Of a DNA stretch of 64,000 nt, positions 7,590 through 48,970 are shown in pieces; position 1 is the stretch's first letter, and every line of letters starts with the position of its first letter. A program made the position numbers and the translations under genes. The notes below the pieces were generated by a model that did no database searches, had not been told where the DNA came from, and worked only from the letters and a program-made list of their open reading frames with translations. The DNA is from Klebsiella electrica (GTDB taxonomy: Bacteria; Pseudomonadota; Gammaproteobacteria; Enterobacterales; Enterobacteriaceae): positions 1,612,001-1,676,000 of the forward strand of contig NZ_CP041247.1 in assembly GCF_006711645.1 (NCBI RefSeq), read 5' to 3'.

Positions 7590-8522
7590 ATGCGTGTATT
7601 ACTGGCGCCGATGGAAGGTGTGCTCGATTCGCTGGTGCGCGAGCTGCTGACCGAGGTTAACGATTACGATCTGTGCATCACCGAATTTCTACGGGTGGTG
7701 GATCAGCTGCTGCCGGTAAAATCGTTCTACAAACTGTGCCCGGAACTTCATCATCAAAGCCGCACGCCTTCCGGCACCCGCGTCCGGGTGCAGCTGCTGG
7801 GGCAATATCCGCAATGGCTGGCGGAAAATGCCGCGCGGGCGGTGGCGCTGGGTTCGTGGGGCGTCGATCTGAACTGCGGCTGTCCGTCAAAGCTGGTGAA
7901 CGGCAGCGGCGGCGGGGCGACGCTGCTTAAAGACCCTGAGCTTATCTATCGCGGTGCAAAAGCGATGCGCGAAGCGGTGCCGGATCATCTGCCGGTGACG
8001 GTCAAAATTCGCCTGGGCTGGGACAGCGGAGCGCGTCAGTTTGAAATTGCCGATGCGGTAGAGCAGGCCGGCGTGACGGAGCTGGTGGTTCACGGACGCA
8101 CGAAAGAAGACGCTTATAAAGCCGAGCGGATCAACTGGGCAGCGATTGGCGAAATCCGCCAGCGGCTGTCAATTCCGGTTATCGCTAACGGCGAAATCTG
8201 GGACTGGCAAAGCGCGCAGGAGTGTCTGGCGGTCACCGGCTGCGACTCGGTGATGATTGGTCGCGGCGCGCTGAACGTGCCAAATTTAAGCCGGGTCATC
8301 AAATATAACGAACCGCGCATGCCGTGGCCACAGGTTGTGGAGCTACTGAAAAAATATACGCGTCTGGAAAAACAGGGCGATACCGGGTTGTATCATGTTG
8401 CGCGAATTAAACAGTGGCTCAGTTATTTACGCAAAGAATATGATGAGGCGTTGATCGTGTTTAATGAAATACGTACGCTGAAAACCTCTGCGGACATTGC
8501 GCTGGCCATAGCCCGTTATTAG
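7590..8522 (+). CDS. dusC: tRNA-dihydrouridine(16) synthase DusC
   Basis: A 310-residue FMN-dependent tRNA-dihydrouridine synthase. It has the family signature [10 protein letters not shown] with the catalytic Cys98, the N-terminal [11 protein letters not shown] loop, and the flavin-binding stretches VKIRLGW and [10 protein letters not shown]. coli DusC (315 residues) reduces U16 of tRNA. The gene stands alone. In E. coli its neighbour is mdtQ; here about 10.5 kb of sugar genes come between. Its expression may depend on read-through of the terminator at 7548-7577. Confidence 0.95.
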
Positions 8523-8617
8523 GGAATATTGTTAAATCGCTCACACTTTATTACTCCGGGAGCATCTGCTGATGGGCATTTCTGCCGCTGAGTGATATTG
8601 TAGTATTCATATATTCA

Positions 8618-8689
8618 GGGTTGCTACTGATTACAGGCAAAACCTAAGCACTTCCGCCATTCGTGGCTGGAGTGCTTAGGTTTTTTTTT
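8618..8689 (+). promoter_or_regulatory. BglG-type RAT antiterminator overlapping a terminator, upstream of the OprB-like porin
   Basis: GGGTTGCTACTG-ATTA-CAGGCAAAACC (8618-8644) matches the ribonucleic antiterminator (RAT) bound by BglG-type proteins; compare the copies at 14463 and 15396. Its 3' end overlaps the 5' arm of an intrinsic terminator: CCTAAGCACT (8643-8652) pairs perfectly with AGTGCTTAGG (8671-8680), followed by nine T residues. RAT folding and the terminator are mutually exclusive. The rest of 8523-8875 holds no gene that I can support. Confidence 0.85.
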
Positions 8690-8875
8690 GCTTTTTATTT
8701 CTTGAGGAATTAAATGATTATCTAAAACAATAGGTTATGCTCGAATCGGTTGCGCTAATAAAGCGGTTGAATGGCTGACGGGCAGGTATTGAAAAATAAA
8801 TATAAAGACTAAAAACGGGCAGGTTTATTGCCTGGGGCCAGCTATTACCCTTATTCAGTCACAATGGATATCATT

Positions 8876-10240
8876 ATGCACAACAAAAAAATAAATCACC
8901 TTCTGTTGATAGTGACATTGACTCTGTTGACTCCCGGCGCGTTCGCTGCGGAAACAGAAAAATGGAACGGTACGGTATTAGGTTTTGAGAAGCCGCAAAA
9001 AGGCTTGCTCGGGGAGATGGCCGGGATTCGTCCGATCCTCGAAGATAACGGATTTAATTATAATCTCGGCTACCTCAATGAAATGGGATACAACGCCGGC
9101 GGCGGATATAACCATGACAAACAGCTGGCTTATATCGATCAGGTCGCCCTGACCTTTACCCAGGACCTGGAGCGCTGGACCGGGATCCCGGATGCGCGCA
9201 TTGAGGGCAATATCGTTAACCGTAACCACGATGACAACCTGACCACCCAGCGGCTACAGGATCCGCGGGTTAATTTTAACGATCTGGCGCAGGAAAGCTG
9301 GGGAGGCCAGTCCATTACCCGTCTTGGCTGGCTGACCTTTGCCCGTAGCTTCGATGAGCGTCGTATGACCTGGCGTATCGGGATGATGAATAAGGTGCAG
9401 ACCTTCGATCAGATTATCCCCTGCGATTTTCAGTTGCTTTCACAGTGTGGCGGTAAGTCTGCCAACTCGCTGACCTGGAACAACTGGAACGTCCATACCT
9501 GGGGCACGACCGTCGAATATAAGCTGACCCCGACGCTGACGCTGAAGGGCGGTGTCATGGAGCAGAATCCGCAGGCCTCTTCCCGCAGCCACGCGTGGAG
9601 CTGGTCGACAAAAGGCAGTAAGGGCATTTTGCTGCCGGTAGAGATCGAAGCGCGTCCGGTGATCAACGGCCTTCCCGGCGCGTATAACCTCGGCGTGCTC
9701 TATACCAACGCCCCGCAGAACGATCTGTATACGGGAAAATCCGGCGGTCCCGGGGCCAGCGACCCGCAAGGATATGCGCAACACGATCGCACCTGGTTTC
9801 TGTATGGCGGGCTGAATCAGCAGATAACCCGCCATGCTGACGACCCTGAGCGCGGGATGAGCGTTTCGCTGAGCGGCAGCTATAGCGATAAGCGCAGCAA
9901 CTACATCCATACCTCCGTGGCCGCATCAATGCGCTATCGCGGCCTCTTTGACGCCCGCCCGCAAGACTGGCTGGGCTTTGGCCTGACCTGGATGGATATG
10001 AGCAACCATTACGCGCGCAACCAGCAGTACAGGAATGAGGTCAGCGGGGCTACGGACTATTCTGCGGCAAACTATCAGCCGGTAGCCGGGCATTCGGTGA
10101 ATGCTGAACTGTACTACCGCCTGCGTCCGGTGTCGTGGCTTGAGCTGCAGCCGGGCCTGCAGTACTGGCATCGCCCGGGTGGCGTCGCTCAGACTCAGGA
10201 TGCCTGGGTCATCGAGTGGAAAACCGTGGTGACTTTCTGA
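8876..10240 (+). CDS. OprB-family carbohydrate-selective outer-membrane porin
   Basis: A 454-residue outer-membrane beta-barrel protein of the OprB carbohydrate-porin type, starting at MHNKKINHLLLIV. An alternative ATG at 8864 adds four residues. A signal peptide ends at TPGAFA|AETEK. The C-terminus is aromatic (KTVVTF), as expected for Bam-inserted porins. OprB proteins admit sugars across the outer membrane; the substrate here is not known. The upstream RAT-terminator implies control by a BglG-type antiterminator and hence beta-glucosides. It differs from E. coli BglH, which is a LamB-type porin. It converges with the AraC gene. Confidence 0.82.
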   Translation: MHNKKINHLLLIVTLTLLTPGAFAAETEKWNGTVLGFEKPQKGLLGEMAGIRPILEDNGFNYNLGYLNEMGYNAGGGYNHDKQLAYIDQVALTFTQDLERWTGIPDARIEGNIVNRNHDDNLTTQRLQDPRVNFNDLAQESWGGQSITRLGWLTFARSFDERRMTWRIGMMNKVQTFDQIIPCDFQLLSQCGGKSANSLTWNNWNVHTWGTTVEYKLTPTLTLKGGVMEQNPQASSRSHAWSWSTKGSKGILLPVEIEARPVINGLPGAYNLGVLYTNAPQNDLYTGKSGGPGASDPQGYAQHDRTWFLYGGLNQQITRHADDPERGMSVSLSGSYSDKRSNYIHTSVAASMRYRGLFDARPQDWLGFGLTWMDMSNHYARNQQYRNEVSGATDYSAANYQPVAGHSVNAELYYRLRPVSWLELQPGLQYWHRPGGVAQTQDAWVIEWKTVVTF

Positions 10241-10279: not shown

Positions 10280-11140
10280 TCATCCGACGCGGCGGTTGTC
10301 CAGACGGTCGCGAAATTCCAGCGGCGTGCAGCCGAGGTGCTGGCGGAAGCGTAAACAGAAATAGGCGCTATCGGTAAAGCCCGCGGTCTGGGCTACATCG
10401 ACAATTTTTAGCTGGCTGGAGGTCAGCAGTTGTACCGCCACCTTGAGCTTACGCAGAAAAATATACTCTTTAAACGTCATATTAAACAGCTGCTTAAACA
10501 TGCGTGAAAAGTAGGACTTCGACACCTGGCACCGCTGCGCCGCCTCCAGCGTGGTGGTCTCCCAGGCTTTATGCTCTTCAATCTCATACAATAATTGCCG
10601 CACCCTGCTCACAAAGTCGCCGCCGGGAACATGGGGGAACGTCTCATCGTCGTGGTTGAGCGAGAAAACGAACTCCATCAGCAGAGCGATGCTTTTCAAA
10701 AATACCGCCTGGTTATCCGCTTTCTTTCCCAGACCAATGGCCCAGTCAAAAAGCGCCGTCAACTGCACGCCGGTTGCGGGATCCGGATACAGCACCCGGA
10801 TGCGATCCTTTTGCCGGGAAAAATGGCTCACCGCCAGCGGGTTTAAAAAATCAAATTCAAACTGGAACAGATAGCGGTTGTGATTGTACTCTGGGATCAG
10901 GTACATCGCATGGGGAATGAGCGCCGGAACGAAAATCAAGGTGCCGTTTTTTATCGGGATCTGTCGATCGTTGATGCCAAAATAACCACAGGAACGATCG
11001 AACCACATTAATTCATACATAAAGTGAAAATGTGTCTTCACATCATCGCCGGAATACTCGGGAAGCTGATATTGCTGCAGGTAGTAGAGTTCCTGGGTCA
11101 GCGTAATGATATTTTCATATGTTACCGGGTCATCATGCAT
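10280..11140 (-). CDS. AraC-family regulator of the xyloside genes
   Basis: A 286-residue regulator with an N-terminal cupin-like sensory half (about 1-150, with HFHFMYELMWFDRSCGYF) and two C-terminal helix-turn-helix motifs (about 180-280, ending CTPLEFRDR). A strong ribosome site (GGAGG, 7 bases before ATG) supports the start at 11140. It is divergent from the xyloside transporter and GH43 xylosidase genes, so it most likely activates them in response to a xyloside or xylose. The inducer is an inference from context. Confidence 0.85.
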   Translation of the reverse strand: MHDDPVTYENIITLTQELYYLQQYQLPEYSGDDVKTHFHFMYELMWFDRSCGYFGINDRQIPIKNGTLIFVPALIPHAMYLIPEYNHNRYLFQFEFDFLNPLAVSHFSRQKDRIRVLYPDPATGVQLTALFDWAIGLGKKADNQAVFLKSIALLMEFVFSLNHDDETFPHVPGGDFVSRVRQLLYEIEEHKAWETTTLEAAQRCQVSKSYFSRMFKQLFNMTFKEYIFLRKLKVAVQLLTSSQLKIVDVAQTAGFTDSAYFCLRFRQHLGCTPLEFRDRLDNRRVG

Positions 11141-11222: not shown

Positions 11223-11338
11223 GGGCAGGTTCACTTTTATTATATAGCTATCCTCTCTTTATACATATTGAAGAAGCCGATGGGCCTACAATGGCCTTGT
11301 CAGCAGCAACAACCTTTCCTTGTATGGGGTTATCGTCA

Positions 11339-12679
11339 ATGAACAAAATAATGCCATTAAACTGGTATCAGAAAATGGGTTATGGACTTGGAGACACCGC
11401 CTGTAATTTGGTCTGGTCATCCATCATGTTATTTATGGCCTATTTTTATACGGATATATTTGGTTTGTCACCGGCGCATATGGGGACCATGTTTTTAGCC
11501 GTCCGGGTAATTGATGCCTTTTTTGATGTGGGGATCGGCGCAGTGACGGACCGCACGCGGACCAAATATGGTCAATTTCGCCCTTATTTACTGTGGTTCG
11601 CCATTCCTTTTGGCGTAATGTGCATGTTGACCTTTTATACGCCAGATTTTTCCTATACCGGCAAGCTGATTTACGCCTACGTTTCTTATACCCTGCTCTC
11701 GCTGTTATATAGTGCTATTAATGTTCCCTATTGCGCGATGATTAACAATATCAGCCAGAGCTCCGTCGAACGGGTGTCGTTGCAATCGTGGCGCTTCGCC
11801 ATGAGCTCCGCCGGCGGGCTATTAGTCTCCGTGGCCGCGCTTCCTGCGGTGGCGTGGTTGGGGAAAGGGAATATCCAGCACGGCTATTTTTATGCCATGG
11901 TGCTGATTAGTAGCCTGGGTATTATGTTGTTTTACCTTTGTTTCTTCCTGACCAAAGAGACCGCGATCGCGGCAATCGATGCCAATCGCGGGAGTCTGTT
12001 GCAGGATCTGCGTATATTATTGAAAAACCGCGACTGGCGTATTCTCTTTACGCTCAACGTCGTCAATCTGGTGGCGGTTATCTTTAAAATGGGGATCATT
12101 ATTTACTTCTGTAATTATGTTCTGCGACGCAGCGATCTAAGCAGCATGATGATCACCGTATCCATTATTTCTGGGTTAGCCGGGACAATTTTATCGGTCT
12201 ATATTTTCCGTGGTATGGATAAAGTCCGGGGATTTAAGCTGGCGATGTTGCTTGAAGCGATATTACTTGCGCTGCTCTATGTCTTTGCCCAGTCGTCGCT
12301 AATCATTATTTTTGCCTTTATTATTGTGATTAATTTTATTCAACTGGCGGCCACACCGTTGCAATGGGCGATGCTCTCGGATGTCGTCGATGCAATTGAA
12401 AGAGATACCGGTAAGAAAATGAGCGGTATCGTTTTTTCCACCAATCTTTTTGCCATCAAATTAGGTATTGCAATCGGCGGCGCGCTAATGGGCTGGCTAT
12501 TGTCATGGAGTGGTTATATCGGTGGCGCGGCGCAGCAACCGCCGATGGCCATTCTGACGATTAAACTTATTTTTACCGTATTACCGGCGGTTCTGGTGCT
12601 GGCGCTGGTGATCATTATGCGCCGTTATTCTTTATCCGATCGGTCGCTGGCGATGGTGGAAAAAACCAGTACGTTATAA
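11339..12679 (+). CDS. GPH-family sugar:cation symporter, XynT/YagG-like xyloside transporter
   Basis: A 446-residue, 12-segment transporter of the glycoside-pentoside-hexuronide (GPH) family. GYGLGDTACNLVW, the DRTRTKYGQFRPYLLW loop and WAMLSDVVDAIERDTGKKMSGIVFS-type segments are all family features. It most resembles E. coli YagG (XynT), which is paired with a beta-xylosidase. I start it at MNKIMPLNW (11339, with GGGG about 9 bases upstream); in-frame ATGs at 11291 and 11324 would add non-conserved residues. It probably imports xylobiose or another xyloside with H+ or Na+ for the next gene. Confidence 0.87.
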   Translation: MNKIMPLNWYQKMGYGLGDTACNLVWSSIMLFMAYFYTDIFGLSPAHMGTMFLAVRVIDAFFDVGIGAVTDRTRTKYGQFRPYLLWFAIPFGVMCMLTFYTPDFSYTGKLIYAYVSYTLLSLLYSAINVPYCAMINNISQSSVERVSLQSWRFAMSSAGGLLVSVAALPAVAWLGKGNIQHGYFYAMVLISSLGIMLFYLCFFLTKETAIAAIDANRGSLLQDLRILLKNRDWRILFTLNVVNLVAVIFKMGIIIYFCNYVLRRSDLSSMMITVSIISGLAGTILSVYIFRGMDKVRGFKLAMLLEAILLALLYVFAQSSLIIIFAFIIVINFIQLAATPLQWAMLSDVVDAIERDTGKKMSGIVFSTNLFAIKLGIAIGGALMGWLLSWSGYIGGAAQQPPMAILTIKLIFTVLPAVLVLALVIIMRRYSLSDRSLAMVEKTSTL

Positions 12680-12698: not shown

Positions 12699-14378
12699 AT
12701 GATTAAAAATCCAGTATTACGTGGTTTTAATCCTGATCCGGCAATCTGTCGGCGGGGCGATGACTATTATATTGCCGTTTCGTCATTCGAGTGGTTTCCC
12801 GGCATTCCGGTCTATCATTCCACCGACTTAGAGAACTGGACGTTATGCGCCCATGTGCTCAACGATCCACACACGCTGGATCTGCGCAAACTGCGCTCCG
12901 CCAAGGGTATCTGGGCACCCTGTCTGACCTGGTGTGAAGCCGACCAGCTCTTTTACGTGGTGTACGGCATCATGAACGCTATGAATGGCCGCTATTTTGA
13001 TGTCGATAATTATCTGGTCAGCGCGGCGGACATTCGCGGTCCGTGGAGCGAGCCGGTCTACATCCACTCCGTGGGCTATGACGCCTCTGTTTTCCACGAC
13101 GACGACGGCAGAAAATGGATTGTCGCCGTCGACTGGGAGACCCGGGATGACTATACCGGGGCGATCTCCATCGTGGAGTACGATCCGCAGTCGAAAATGA
13201 CGATTGGCTATCCGCAGCGTATCTGGCAGGGGGTGTATGGCATGGCGGAAGGGGCGCATATCACCCGGCGCAATGGCTATTATTACATAATGTGCGCCGA
13301 GGGCGGCACTGGCTACGGCCACTGCGTAACCCTCGGACGGGCGCGGCATATTCTCGGCCCTTATGAAAAAGATCCGCACAGCCCGCTGCTAACCTCGGCG
13401 CGAGCGGAGGATTTGCAAAAGCCGGTACATATCGAGAAAACCTCGGCATCGGCGTTTGATAAAGATTATCTGCGGCGGCAGTGTTTTAACCCGGCGTCGG
13501 CGCTGCAAAAATCCGGTCACGCCAGCTATGTCGAAGATGACCATGGGAATGTCATTATGGCCCACCTGTGCGCCAGGCCGCTGCTTCCGGAACTGGCCTG
13601 TACGCTGGGGCGGGAGACCGCCATTCAAAAAATGCGCTGGACTGAGGAGGGGTGGCTGCGCCTGAGTGCGGGCGGCAACCTGGCGCAGGAATATGTCGGG
13701 CTGGGGCCATCGACCGCCGTTGATGAGCAGGCGGAGCGGGTTGAGCGAGTCGATTTTGCTGCGCAGGTATTGCCGCCTGGCTGGTACGCGCCGCGTATTC
13801 CGCCTGCGGACTTTACGCGCTATGCGCCCGAAGAAGGCGCTCTGATGCTACGCGGTCAGGAGTCGCTGTGTTCGGAGAACCGCGTCAGTCTGCTGGCGCG
13901 GAAGCTGACCTCGGTGTACGCCACGCTGACGGCATGCATGGATTTTCAACCCGAGGTGTTCCAGCACAGCGCCGGGCTGGTGCTGTACTACGACAATATG
14001 AACTATCTGTTCTTGCACAAAACCTTTGACGATCGGCTGCGGTGCTCGCGCTTTTATGTCATTCATGTCGATAACGGTCTGAAGCGGGAAGATCATCTGG
14101 GAACGGTGGCTGGCGTCGAGGGGCCGGTGTATCTGCGGCTGGCGATTGACGGCAAGTCGACGCGGTTTTTCTGGTCGCCAGACAATCAGACCTTTCATGC
14201 GATAGGTCAGACCTACAGCACCGCCTTGTTTTCCGATGAGTACAGCCGCTATGGCGAATTTACCGGCGCCTTTGTCGGGATTGGCTGCGTGGATTCCGCC
14301 TACCATCGGCGGCAGGCGGCGTTTTACTCGCTGGAATATCGCGCGTTTGAGCAGCGTTCGTTACCCCAACCGGAGTAA
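12699..14378 (+). CDS. GH43 beta-xylosidase (XynB/YagH-like)
   Basis: A 559-residue glycoside hydrolase of family 43 with no signal peptide, so cytoplasmic. The five-bladed propeller catalytic residues can be placed: Asp13 in GFNPDPAI (base), Asp128 in GYDAS (pKa modulator) and Glu184 in GMAEGAH (acid). A C-terminal beta-sandwich follows (about 330-559), as in YagH and SXA-type xylosidases. It should release xylose, possibly with alpha-arabinofuranosidase side activity, from imported xylo-oligosaccharides. It starts 20 bases after the transporter, with AAAAAGGA as ribosome site, in the same operon. Confidence 0.92.
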   Translation: MIKNPVLRGFNPDPAICRRGDDYYIAVSSFEWFPGIPVYHSTDLENWTLCAHVLNDPHTLDLRKLRSAKGIWAPCLTWCEADQLFYVVYGIMNAMNGRYFDVDNYLVSAADIRGPWSEPVYIHSVGYDASVFHDDDGRKWIVAVDWETRDDYTGAISIVEYDPQSKMTIGYPQRIWQGVYGMAEGAHITRRNGYYYIMCAEGGTGYGHCVTLGRARHILGPYEKDPHSPLLTSARAEDLQKPVHIEKTSASAFDKDYLRRQCFNPASALQKSGHASYVEDDHGNVIMAHLCARPLLPELACTLGRETAIQKMRWTEEGWLRLSAGGNLAQEYVGLGPSTAVDEQAERVERVDFAAQVLPPGWYAPRIPPADFTRYAPEEGALMLRGQESLCSENRVSLLARKLTSVYATLTACMDFQPEVFQHSAGLVLYYDNMNYLFLHKTFDDRLRCSRFYVIHVDNGLKREDHLGTVAGVEGPVYLRLAIDGKSTRFFWSPDNQTFHAIGQTYSTALFSDEYSRYGEFTGAFVGIGCVDSAYHRRQAAFYSLEYRAFEQRSLPQPE

Positions 14379-14462: not shown

Positions 14463-15376
<914 letters not shown>

Positions 15377-15395: not shown

Positions 15396-18784
<3,389 letters not shown>

Positions 18785-22318: not shown

Positions 22319-22453
22319 GCAGCATTTGTTCACGATTCTTATTAGTCAGCCAGCATTCTGCCGGGGTATGATAGGGTTTGCCAGCGTTGCCTGTTTCCCC
22401 GGCCACGCAGCGTACGTTTATAACGTGCAAGAATACTTTTCAGAATGCTCACG

Positions 22454-48635: not shown

Positions 48636-48844
48636 TGGTATTGGCTTCTCACTCAGCGGGCAGGCGCATCTGATAAACCTCCGGCGATAGCGGAGGATAT
48701 TGATGATCCCGGTTTAAAGAAGCGCCTGGGACACCATCCGGGACACATGCAGGTTTTAACGCTTGTTTGTTGGACTTCCCGCTGGCATTATCCTCAGCAG
48801 GGATTAACGCGACGTTAATCGCAAGTATTTGATTTTGATTTAAA

Positions 48845-48924
48845 TGACTCGGGGTGCCCTTCTTCGTGAAGGCTGAGAAATACCCGTACCACCTGATCTG
48901 GATAATGCCAGCGTAGGGAAGTCA
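48845..48924 (+). promoter_or_regulatory. TPP riboswitch (THI element) upstream of thiM
   Basis: The conserved THI box is plain: GGGGTGCCCTTC...GAAGGCTGAGAAATACCC, then ACCTGATCTGGATAATGCCA and GCGTAGGGAAGTCA. P1 closes with TGACT (48845-48849) and AGTCA (48920-48924). It is almost identical to the E. coli thiM riboswitch, which blocks translation when thiamine pyrophosphate is bound; the thiM start is 46 bases downstream. The preceding 48636-48844 shows no gene. Confidence 0.97.
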
Positions 48925-48970
48925 GAGACCAAAGGGTCGTTGCTTCTTCATCGCCTGGCTGGAGCTAACG

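Follow-up and report, generated by a model that had tools for sequence, protein, structure and literature searches.

A carbohydrate-selective porin gene of Klebsiella electrica is preceded by an RNA element of the type that governs the bgl operon, although the likely regulator, bglG, lies almost 6 kb further along. The question raised by this locus is whether the porin belongs to the BglG regulon and which other genes carry the same switch. The window (the whole stretch of 64,000 nucleotides that was analysed) comes from a 5.8-Mb, Raoultella-like genome, and its porin is 96% identical to that of R. planticola. Judged from the sequence, the porin is very probably a transcription unit of its own within a dispersed BglG beta-glucoside regulon and controlled by antitermination. 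The porin and its leader contain the following features.

8530..8545, + strand: CRP-like site TGTTA-N6-TCACA of the porin promoter, one mismatch to TGTGA-N6-TCACA, putative in function
8593..8601, + strand: putative extended -10 (TGATATTGT) of the porin promoter, a weak element read by eye from the leader alignment
8618..8644, + strand: RAT before the porin (predicted BglG antiterminator site), 27 nt long with an upper stem of 3 bp and a loop of 4 nt
8639..8689, + strand: intrinsic terminator of the porin leader, overlapping the RAT by AAAACC
8876..10240, + strand: OprB-family carbohydrate-selective porin, 454 aa (PF04966, 232.8 bits; match to Porin B, 4gey/4gf4)

The RAT at 8618-8644 (GGGTTGCTACTGATTACAGGCAAAACC) was identified by its likeness to what we take to be the BglG-type consensus. 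A pattern combining that consensus with the porin site itself, which was kept in view while the pattern was written, matched once in the window and had no match in any of 100 shuffled windows. The last six bases of the RAT (AAAACC) open the intrinsic terminator, which ends in nine T, and the segment 8618-8692 folds with a minimum free energy of -32.2 kcal/mol (z = -4.54; 1 of 200 shuffles was equally stable). A gathering-threshold Rfam search of the window reported no RAT family; its matches were a Peptidase-S11 RNA (22365-22449) and a TPP riboswitch (48840-48936). Two further RAT-terminators stand in the bgl operon itself.

14463..14491, + strand: RAT t1, before bglG
14486..14527, + strand: terminator t1
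14543..15376, + strand: bglG antiterminator, CAT_RBD and two PRD domains (match to LicT, SacY and BglG-family structures)
15396..15425, + strand: RAT t2, before bglF
15420..15464, + strand: terminator t2
15518..17377, + strand: bglF, beta-glucoside PTS EII (PTS_EIIA_1, EIIC, EIIB), its start placed at ATG 15518 by our choice
17393..18784, + strand: 6-phospho-beta-glucosidase, which we take to be bglB

In relatives, genes 75 to 98% identical to bglB follow bglF. The sequence-only reading had described three RAT-terminator modules, with a stem one base pair shorter in the porin leader and about 6 kb to the regulator. This description is accurate: the modules precede the porin, bglG and bglF, the upper stem has 3 bp (CTG/CAG) before the porin and 4 bp in t1 and t2, and the first base of the porin RAT lies 5.9 kb upstream of the start codon of bglG.

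For a covariance model, 25 RATs were aligned, among them the porin site, t1 and the site of a distal histidine phosphatase; a site before a SurE-type gene was not part of it. Five sites in the genome had E < 1e-3 (150 of 5044 first-look candidates were scored): t2 (45.3 bits), t1 (43.4), the distal histidine phosphatase (42.0), the porin (37.5) and the neighbouring SurE-type gene (24.6). The last was the weakest (E 6.8e-4), and the next site in the genome had an E of 0.44.

The porin is of the OprB family. PF04966 covers residues 82-454 (profile positions 2-372 of 372), the solved Porin B structures 4gey and 4gf4 match by sequence, OprB was the sole family found, and there was no match to the LamB domain (PF02264). 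The proposal that an unrelated porin family stands behind the BglG switch thus holds. Porin B shares the family with the window porin, whose own feature is the RAT control.

How the porin is transcribed can be read less firmly. CRP-like sites are enriched in the window (six matches to the TGTGA-N6-TCACA pattern, 1.0 expected), and the TCACA half of the site before the porin is kept in 18 of 18 aligned leaders, while the left half varies. The bgl promoter of E. coli is described as CRP-dependent (PMC9499468). Porin transcripts would begin roughly 10 nt upstream of the RAT, and CRP probably takes part; a start near 8608, some 71 bases after the CRP-like site, is weakly indicated. A strict sigma-70 promoter and terminator scan of 8500-8900 found nothing, but as the obvious terminator escaped it too, this is weak evidence either way.

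Of 43 named loci that encode a relative of the porin, 27 have a RAT at most 600 nt upstream of it, so that the element passes the check on orthologous loci that the sequence-only reading had proposed. All but one of these 27 RATs fit 23 of 23 scored positions (C7 and G3 allowed); the exception, L011, fits 21. The porin follows bglB in 14 of the 16 RAT-less loci, an arrangement seen in Serratia, Yersinia, Providencia, Zobellella and the contig L028; at two Tatumella porin loci neither a RAT nor a nearby bgl gene was found. In an alignment of 23 leaders (the window and 22 of the 27 RAT-porin loci), 14 of the 20 base pairs of the terminator stem had changed at both positions, a figure reached by none of 500 shuffles, and there were 32 covarying cells against a shuffled mean of 7.6. 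The RAT was invariant across these leaders except for the loop and positions 3 and 7. The covariation of the terminator stem and the constancy of the RAT suggest selection on both, in the one case for base pairing and in the other for the sequence itself.

The same alignment bears on a rival explanation, in which the element merely terminates dusC and a BglG-independent promoter below it drives the porin. The end of dusC at 8522, upstream of the porin and in the same direction, would suit such a terminator, and the 186 nt between the hairpin and the porin start codon could hold a promoter. A terminator that does nothing else would, however, have no need of an invariant RAT, and the RAT is kept where tblastn found no dusC upstream (L018, L021, L023, L027 and others). 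The strict scan of 8500-8900 showed no promoter, which counts little because it missed the putative upstream promoter as well. Taken together, it is improbable that the element serves dusC alone.

The commonest gene order is RAT-porin-RAT-bglG-RAT-bglF-bglB; the porin adjoins bglG in most RAT-porin loci with readable sequence beyond, and lies directly 5' of it in Klebsiella, Enterobacter, Lelliottia, Silvania, Pantoea and others. Upstream of the porin, dusC is present in Klebsiella and Enterobacter kin and was not found at Pantoea porin loci. The unclassified Enterobacterales contig L028 has the order bglB-porin-RAT-bglG, which may represent a step between the two arrangements. In the window, porin and bglG are separated by a 4.1-kb unit of three genes.

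10280..11140, - strand: AraC-type regulator (of the 43 loci, only L001 and L003 have it between porin and bglG)
11291..12679, + strand: MFS sugar transporter (PF13347)
12699..14378, + strand: GH43 beta-xylosidase-like protein

Of the loci compared, just three have porin and bglG separated by this AraC-MFS-GH43 unit: the window, R. planticola (L001) and Raoultella sp. BIGb0138 (L003). The 'split' is thus a local feature. The split regulon of the sequence-only reading is therefore real in the window but is not a general design, as the porin mostly adjoins bglG. Compared with R. ornithinolytica, which has no such unit, the unit extends from after the porin stop codon to before GATTAGTCGCGATCC, the start of the conserved region upstream of bglG. 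Its G+C content is 0.517 (window, 0.573). In a tree built for eight genomes from a concatenation of five genes, R. ornithinolytica grouped beside R. planticola and within the unit-bearing group; this placement is most simply explained if R. ornithinolytica has lost the unit.

Two CAT_RBD proteins were found in the window's genome, BglG and one encoded at G000:C1:1826863, so that the porin RAT might answer mainly to the second antiterminator rather than to BglG. This protein is 44% identical to BglG, and the gene after it is presumably GH1-like. Its own leader (L045:1350-1442) has a long, different hairpin followed by a 22-bp terminator stem (z -9.85), and scores 6.4 bits against the RAT model, whereas the porin RAT, itself a member of the model, scores 37.5; it is probably a RAT of other specificity. 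Furthermore, several relatives with a RAT-porin (G002, G029, G086, G121, G162 and others) show a single CAT_RBD protein. Main control by the second protein is therefore unlikely, and the cross-talk that the sequence-only reading had allowed for is disfavoured, although this antiterminator could bind the porin RAT weakly. As its leader differs, BglG is the likely regulator of the porin.

The switch is widespread in the family. The census pattern (GGNTTGYTACTGN{2,12}CAGGCAAAACC) matched all 20 genomes from the window's genus and 57 of 198 drawn evenly from the family, while the reversed pattern, used as a control, had no match in any genome listed. CAT_RBD proteins were found in 70 of the 198; the RAT was present in 57 of these 70 and in none of the 128 CAT_RBD-negative genomes (Fisher p 1.8e-37, kinship ignored). 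Because the genomes are related, the census counts are not independent events. That 13 CAT_RBD-positive genomes do not have this RAT means that other specificities exist. Gordon and colleagues reportedly published a RAT survey in 2015, and some of the sites found here may already appear in it.

The genus contributed 67 sites and the family draw 117, eight of them common, which gives 176; 151 were examined, including all 117, and the 25 left out belong to genomes of the window's genus. The target of a site was taken as the longest open reading frame (ORF) starting at most 450 nt from the RAT, and target families were checked on ten representatives. The 117 sites in 57 genomes precede bglF (38), bglG (31), porins (OprB 11, OprD 5, LamB 3) and genes for histidine phosphatases (12), SurE-type phosphatases (9), sulfatases (2) and an esterase (1). 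A NagB-like protein, an outer-membrane-like protein and an unassigned 675-aa membrane protein were each the target of a single site, and two sites had no ORF. Three census sites were without an ORF of at least 150 aa (one in G005 and two in G046, whose listed completeness is 49%). Of the 57 RAT genomes, 18 had a RAT-porin, 16 a RAT-phosphatase and 32 either; of the 32, 25 yielded just one CAT_RBD protein.

Several individual loci add to this range. At L089 (G014:C37:98934-99326) a second OprB porin gene and an alkyl-sulfatase-like gene diverge, each with its own RAT-terminator. LamB-type (BglH-like) porins, a third family besides OprB and OprD, have their own RAT-terminators at L093 (G010), L132 and L133. 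RAT-terminators precede sulfatases (PF00884) near bglF at L134 and L142, and at L134 a further one precedes an outer-membrane-like protein without a Pfam match. An esterase-like protein (Abhydrolase_2) at L115 (G186:C1:2613514) is preceded by a RAT-terminator about 0.9 Mb from bglG. The 675-aa membrane protein, preceded by a RAT at L155 (G159:C23:116566), is not obviously connected with glucosides.

By script, 116 of the 117 RATs are followed by a hairpin with a T run that resembles a terminator; inspection by eye shows one after the last (G133) too. It is most unlikely that the porin RAT binds BglG but affects RNA stability or BglG titration instead of antitermination: such roles are suggested by the question 'not only antitermination?' in the title of Gordon et al. 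2015, whereas a hairpin of this kind after 117 of 117 sites is as in classical switches.

Antitermination by BglG may also reach phosphatases encoded far from bglG. In the window's own genome, a secreted histidine phosphatase (G000:C1:4627965-4628872; L095, L049), about 3.0 Mb from bglG along contig C1, has a RAT-terminator in its leader with a 9-nt span between CTG and CAG. The same arrangement occurs in G008, G011 and G015. The SurE-type gene beside it (4626676-4627542) is preceded by a degenerate RAT (GGATTGTAACGGAATAACGGCAAAACC; 4627640-4627666, - strand) that fits 19 of 23 positions and stands with an intact terminator; it is a decaying or altered site.

With the histidine phosphatase as query, 23 matches (E of 1e-40 or better) were obtained in 20 of 198 genomes. 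Of those with at least 56% identity, 13 of 14 have a RAT at most 450 nt upstream (12 at 23/23 positions; G052 at 22), G060 being the one with no RAT within that distance; at 51% identity or less, none of nine has a RAT upstream. SurE-type matches (E of 1e-60 or better) occurred in 21 of 198 genomes, 10 of them with a RAT directly upstream, including the degenerate copy in the window's genome. Eight lie beside bglG or among RAT-controlled bgl genes (G035, G046, G089, G144, G180, G188, G209 and G210). The SurE-type genes of G104 and G166 have no RAT within 450 nt, and no CAT_RBD protein was found in these genomes; that of G160, with 78 nt readable upstream, was counted neither way. Phosphatases adjoin bgl genes in several genera (L101, L102, L103, L104, L135 and L146); this proximity speaks for a common function independently of the RAT. 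A home-made signal-peptide heuristic was positive for OprB (11/11), histidine phosphatases (12/12), SurE-type proteins (9/9) and sulfatases (1/2), but it is unspecific, being positive for 15 of 31 bglG and 15 of 55 window ORFs as well; export is therefore argued from family and visible N-termini alone.

RATs differ in length between targets. Among the 151 sites, those before OprB span 27-29 nt (14 sites) and those before SurE-type genes 26-27 nt in 18 of 20, while bglG and bglF sites span 29-30 nt in 61 of 78. Compared with bglG/bglF, the difference gave p 2.4e-7 for OprB, 3.1e-11 for SurE and 0.08 for histidine phosphatases (Mann-Whitney; the sites share descent). A 3-bp upper stem was found at 6 of 14 OprB, 19 of 20 SurE, 0 of 32 bglG and 5 of 46 bglF sites; the short stem is thus usual before SurE and non-uniform before OprB. 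These differences suggest a graded response. A 3-bp stem could lower the affinity for BglG, and RATs of different length may set the order or strength of the response.

The proposed control of the porin is as follows. When beta-glucosides are absent, transcription would stop at the terminator 8639-8689. When BglF is transporting beta-glucosides, BglG dimers would bind the RAT and block the terminator, and the OprB porin would be made in step with bglG, bglF and bglB. What the sequences show is the layout, conservation and covariation of the leader and the occurrence of RATs together with CAT_RBD proteins. Binding, read-through, the inducer and CRP action at the porin leader are inferred here, and by analogy with E. 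coli the outer membrane would be opened only while the PTS is active. Other RAT-terminators of the regulon would act on unlinked secreted phosphatases in this genome, and on OprB, OprD and LamB porins, phosphatases, sulfatases and an esterase in relatives.

The nearest known system is bglGFBH of E. coli, which likewise has a CAT_RBD/PRD regulator, an EII sensor and RATs that overlap intrinsic terminators. The window porin differs from it in being OprB rather than LamB, in having its own RAT-terminator and in preceding bglG, here at a distance of 4.1 kb; RAT-terminators also stand before unlinked genes. In Bacillus subtilis, BglG-family antiterminators reach a further secreted enzyme through a RAT, as in LicT/licS and SacY/sacB. 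NagY of Enterococcus faecalis is described as reaching secreted hylA in this way (PMC9981650). The RAT-terminator at the unlinked histidine phosphatase gene of G000 resembles NagY/hylA and LicT/licS, its regulation being predicted from sequence. Those systems and SacY/sacB, however, are Gram-positive and concern polysaccharide-active enzymes, whereas the targets here are enterobacterial porins, phosphatases and sulfatases.

That an OprB-type porin lies beside bgl in Klebsiella is already known. Sankar et al. 2009 (PMC2646131) drew the order yohI (dusC)-porin-bglG-bglF-bglB with a porin not homologous to bglH, and stated that the E. coli bgl operon includes a sugar porin; the available text gives two terminators per unit and mentions neither the porin RAT nor distal RATs. 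In searches that covered few subscription papers, no literature was found linking BglG with OprB or 'ribonucleic antiterminator' with a porin. Among the matches listed, no paper joined SurE with the bgl operon (co-mentions of SurE and BglG concern plant proteins and virus imaging), and for carbohydrate-selective porins and bgl only PMC2646131 has the porin term. In Rahnella grown on salicin, BglF- and BglB-type proteins rise (PMC9959693); the main text of that paper does not contain the words porin or phosphatase, and neither supports nor refutes a regulon of porins and phosphatases.

The families behind the RATs point to a BglG regulon that would provide openings in the outer membrane and may remove groups from conjugated glucosides. 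A BglG envelope programme is a tentative and rather doubtful proposal: three porin families would admit conjugated beta-glucosides, secreted enzymes would strip them and BglF would import the bare glucoside. SurE- and histidine-type phosphatases, sulfatases or an esterase would then remove phosphate, sulfate and acyl groups in the periplasm. The RAT targets fit such substrates: to be used by the PTS, a conjugate would have to pass a pore and lose its phosphate to a periplasmic enzyme, in some cases with the help of a sulfatase or esterase. Animals are known to make them. Whiteflies phosphorylate the glucose of linamarin at C3 (PMC8225905, which also cites C3-phosphorylated phenolic glycosides in gypsy moth), gypsy moth converts salicortinoids to a catechol glucoside phosphate (PMC10495269), and the modular glucosides of Caenorhabditis elegans are described as mostly phosphorylated (position 3 proposed) and acylated (PMC7641594). 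It is speculative that the substrates are animal-made conjugates of this kind, such as glucose-3-phosphate glucosides from whiteflies and gypsy moth or C. elegans modular glucosides.

The bgl operon, a textbook example of an RNA switch, is mostly regarded as self-contained and tested with salicin and arbutin. The present data suggest that its RAT also precedes unrelated porins and secreted phosphatases in many enterobacteria, sometimes megabases away. Secreted SurE-type and histidine phosphatases gain a testable regulator, and the natural length variants of the RAT provide material for measuring how BglG discriminates between sites. Conjugated glucosides from insects, nematodes or plants are a possible class of natural substrate.
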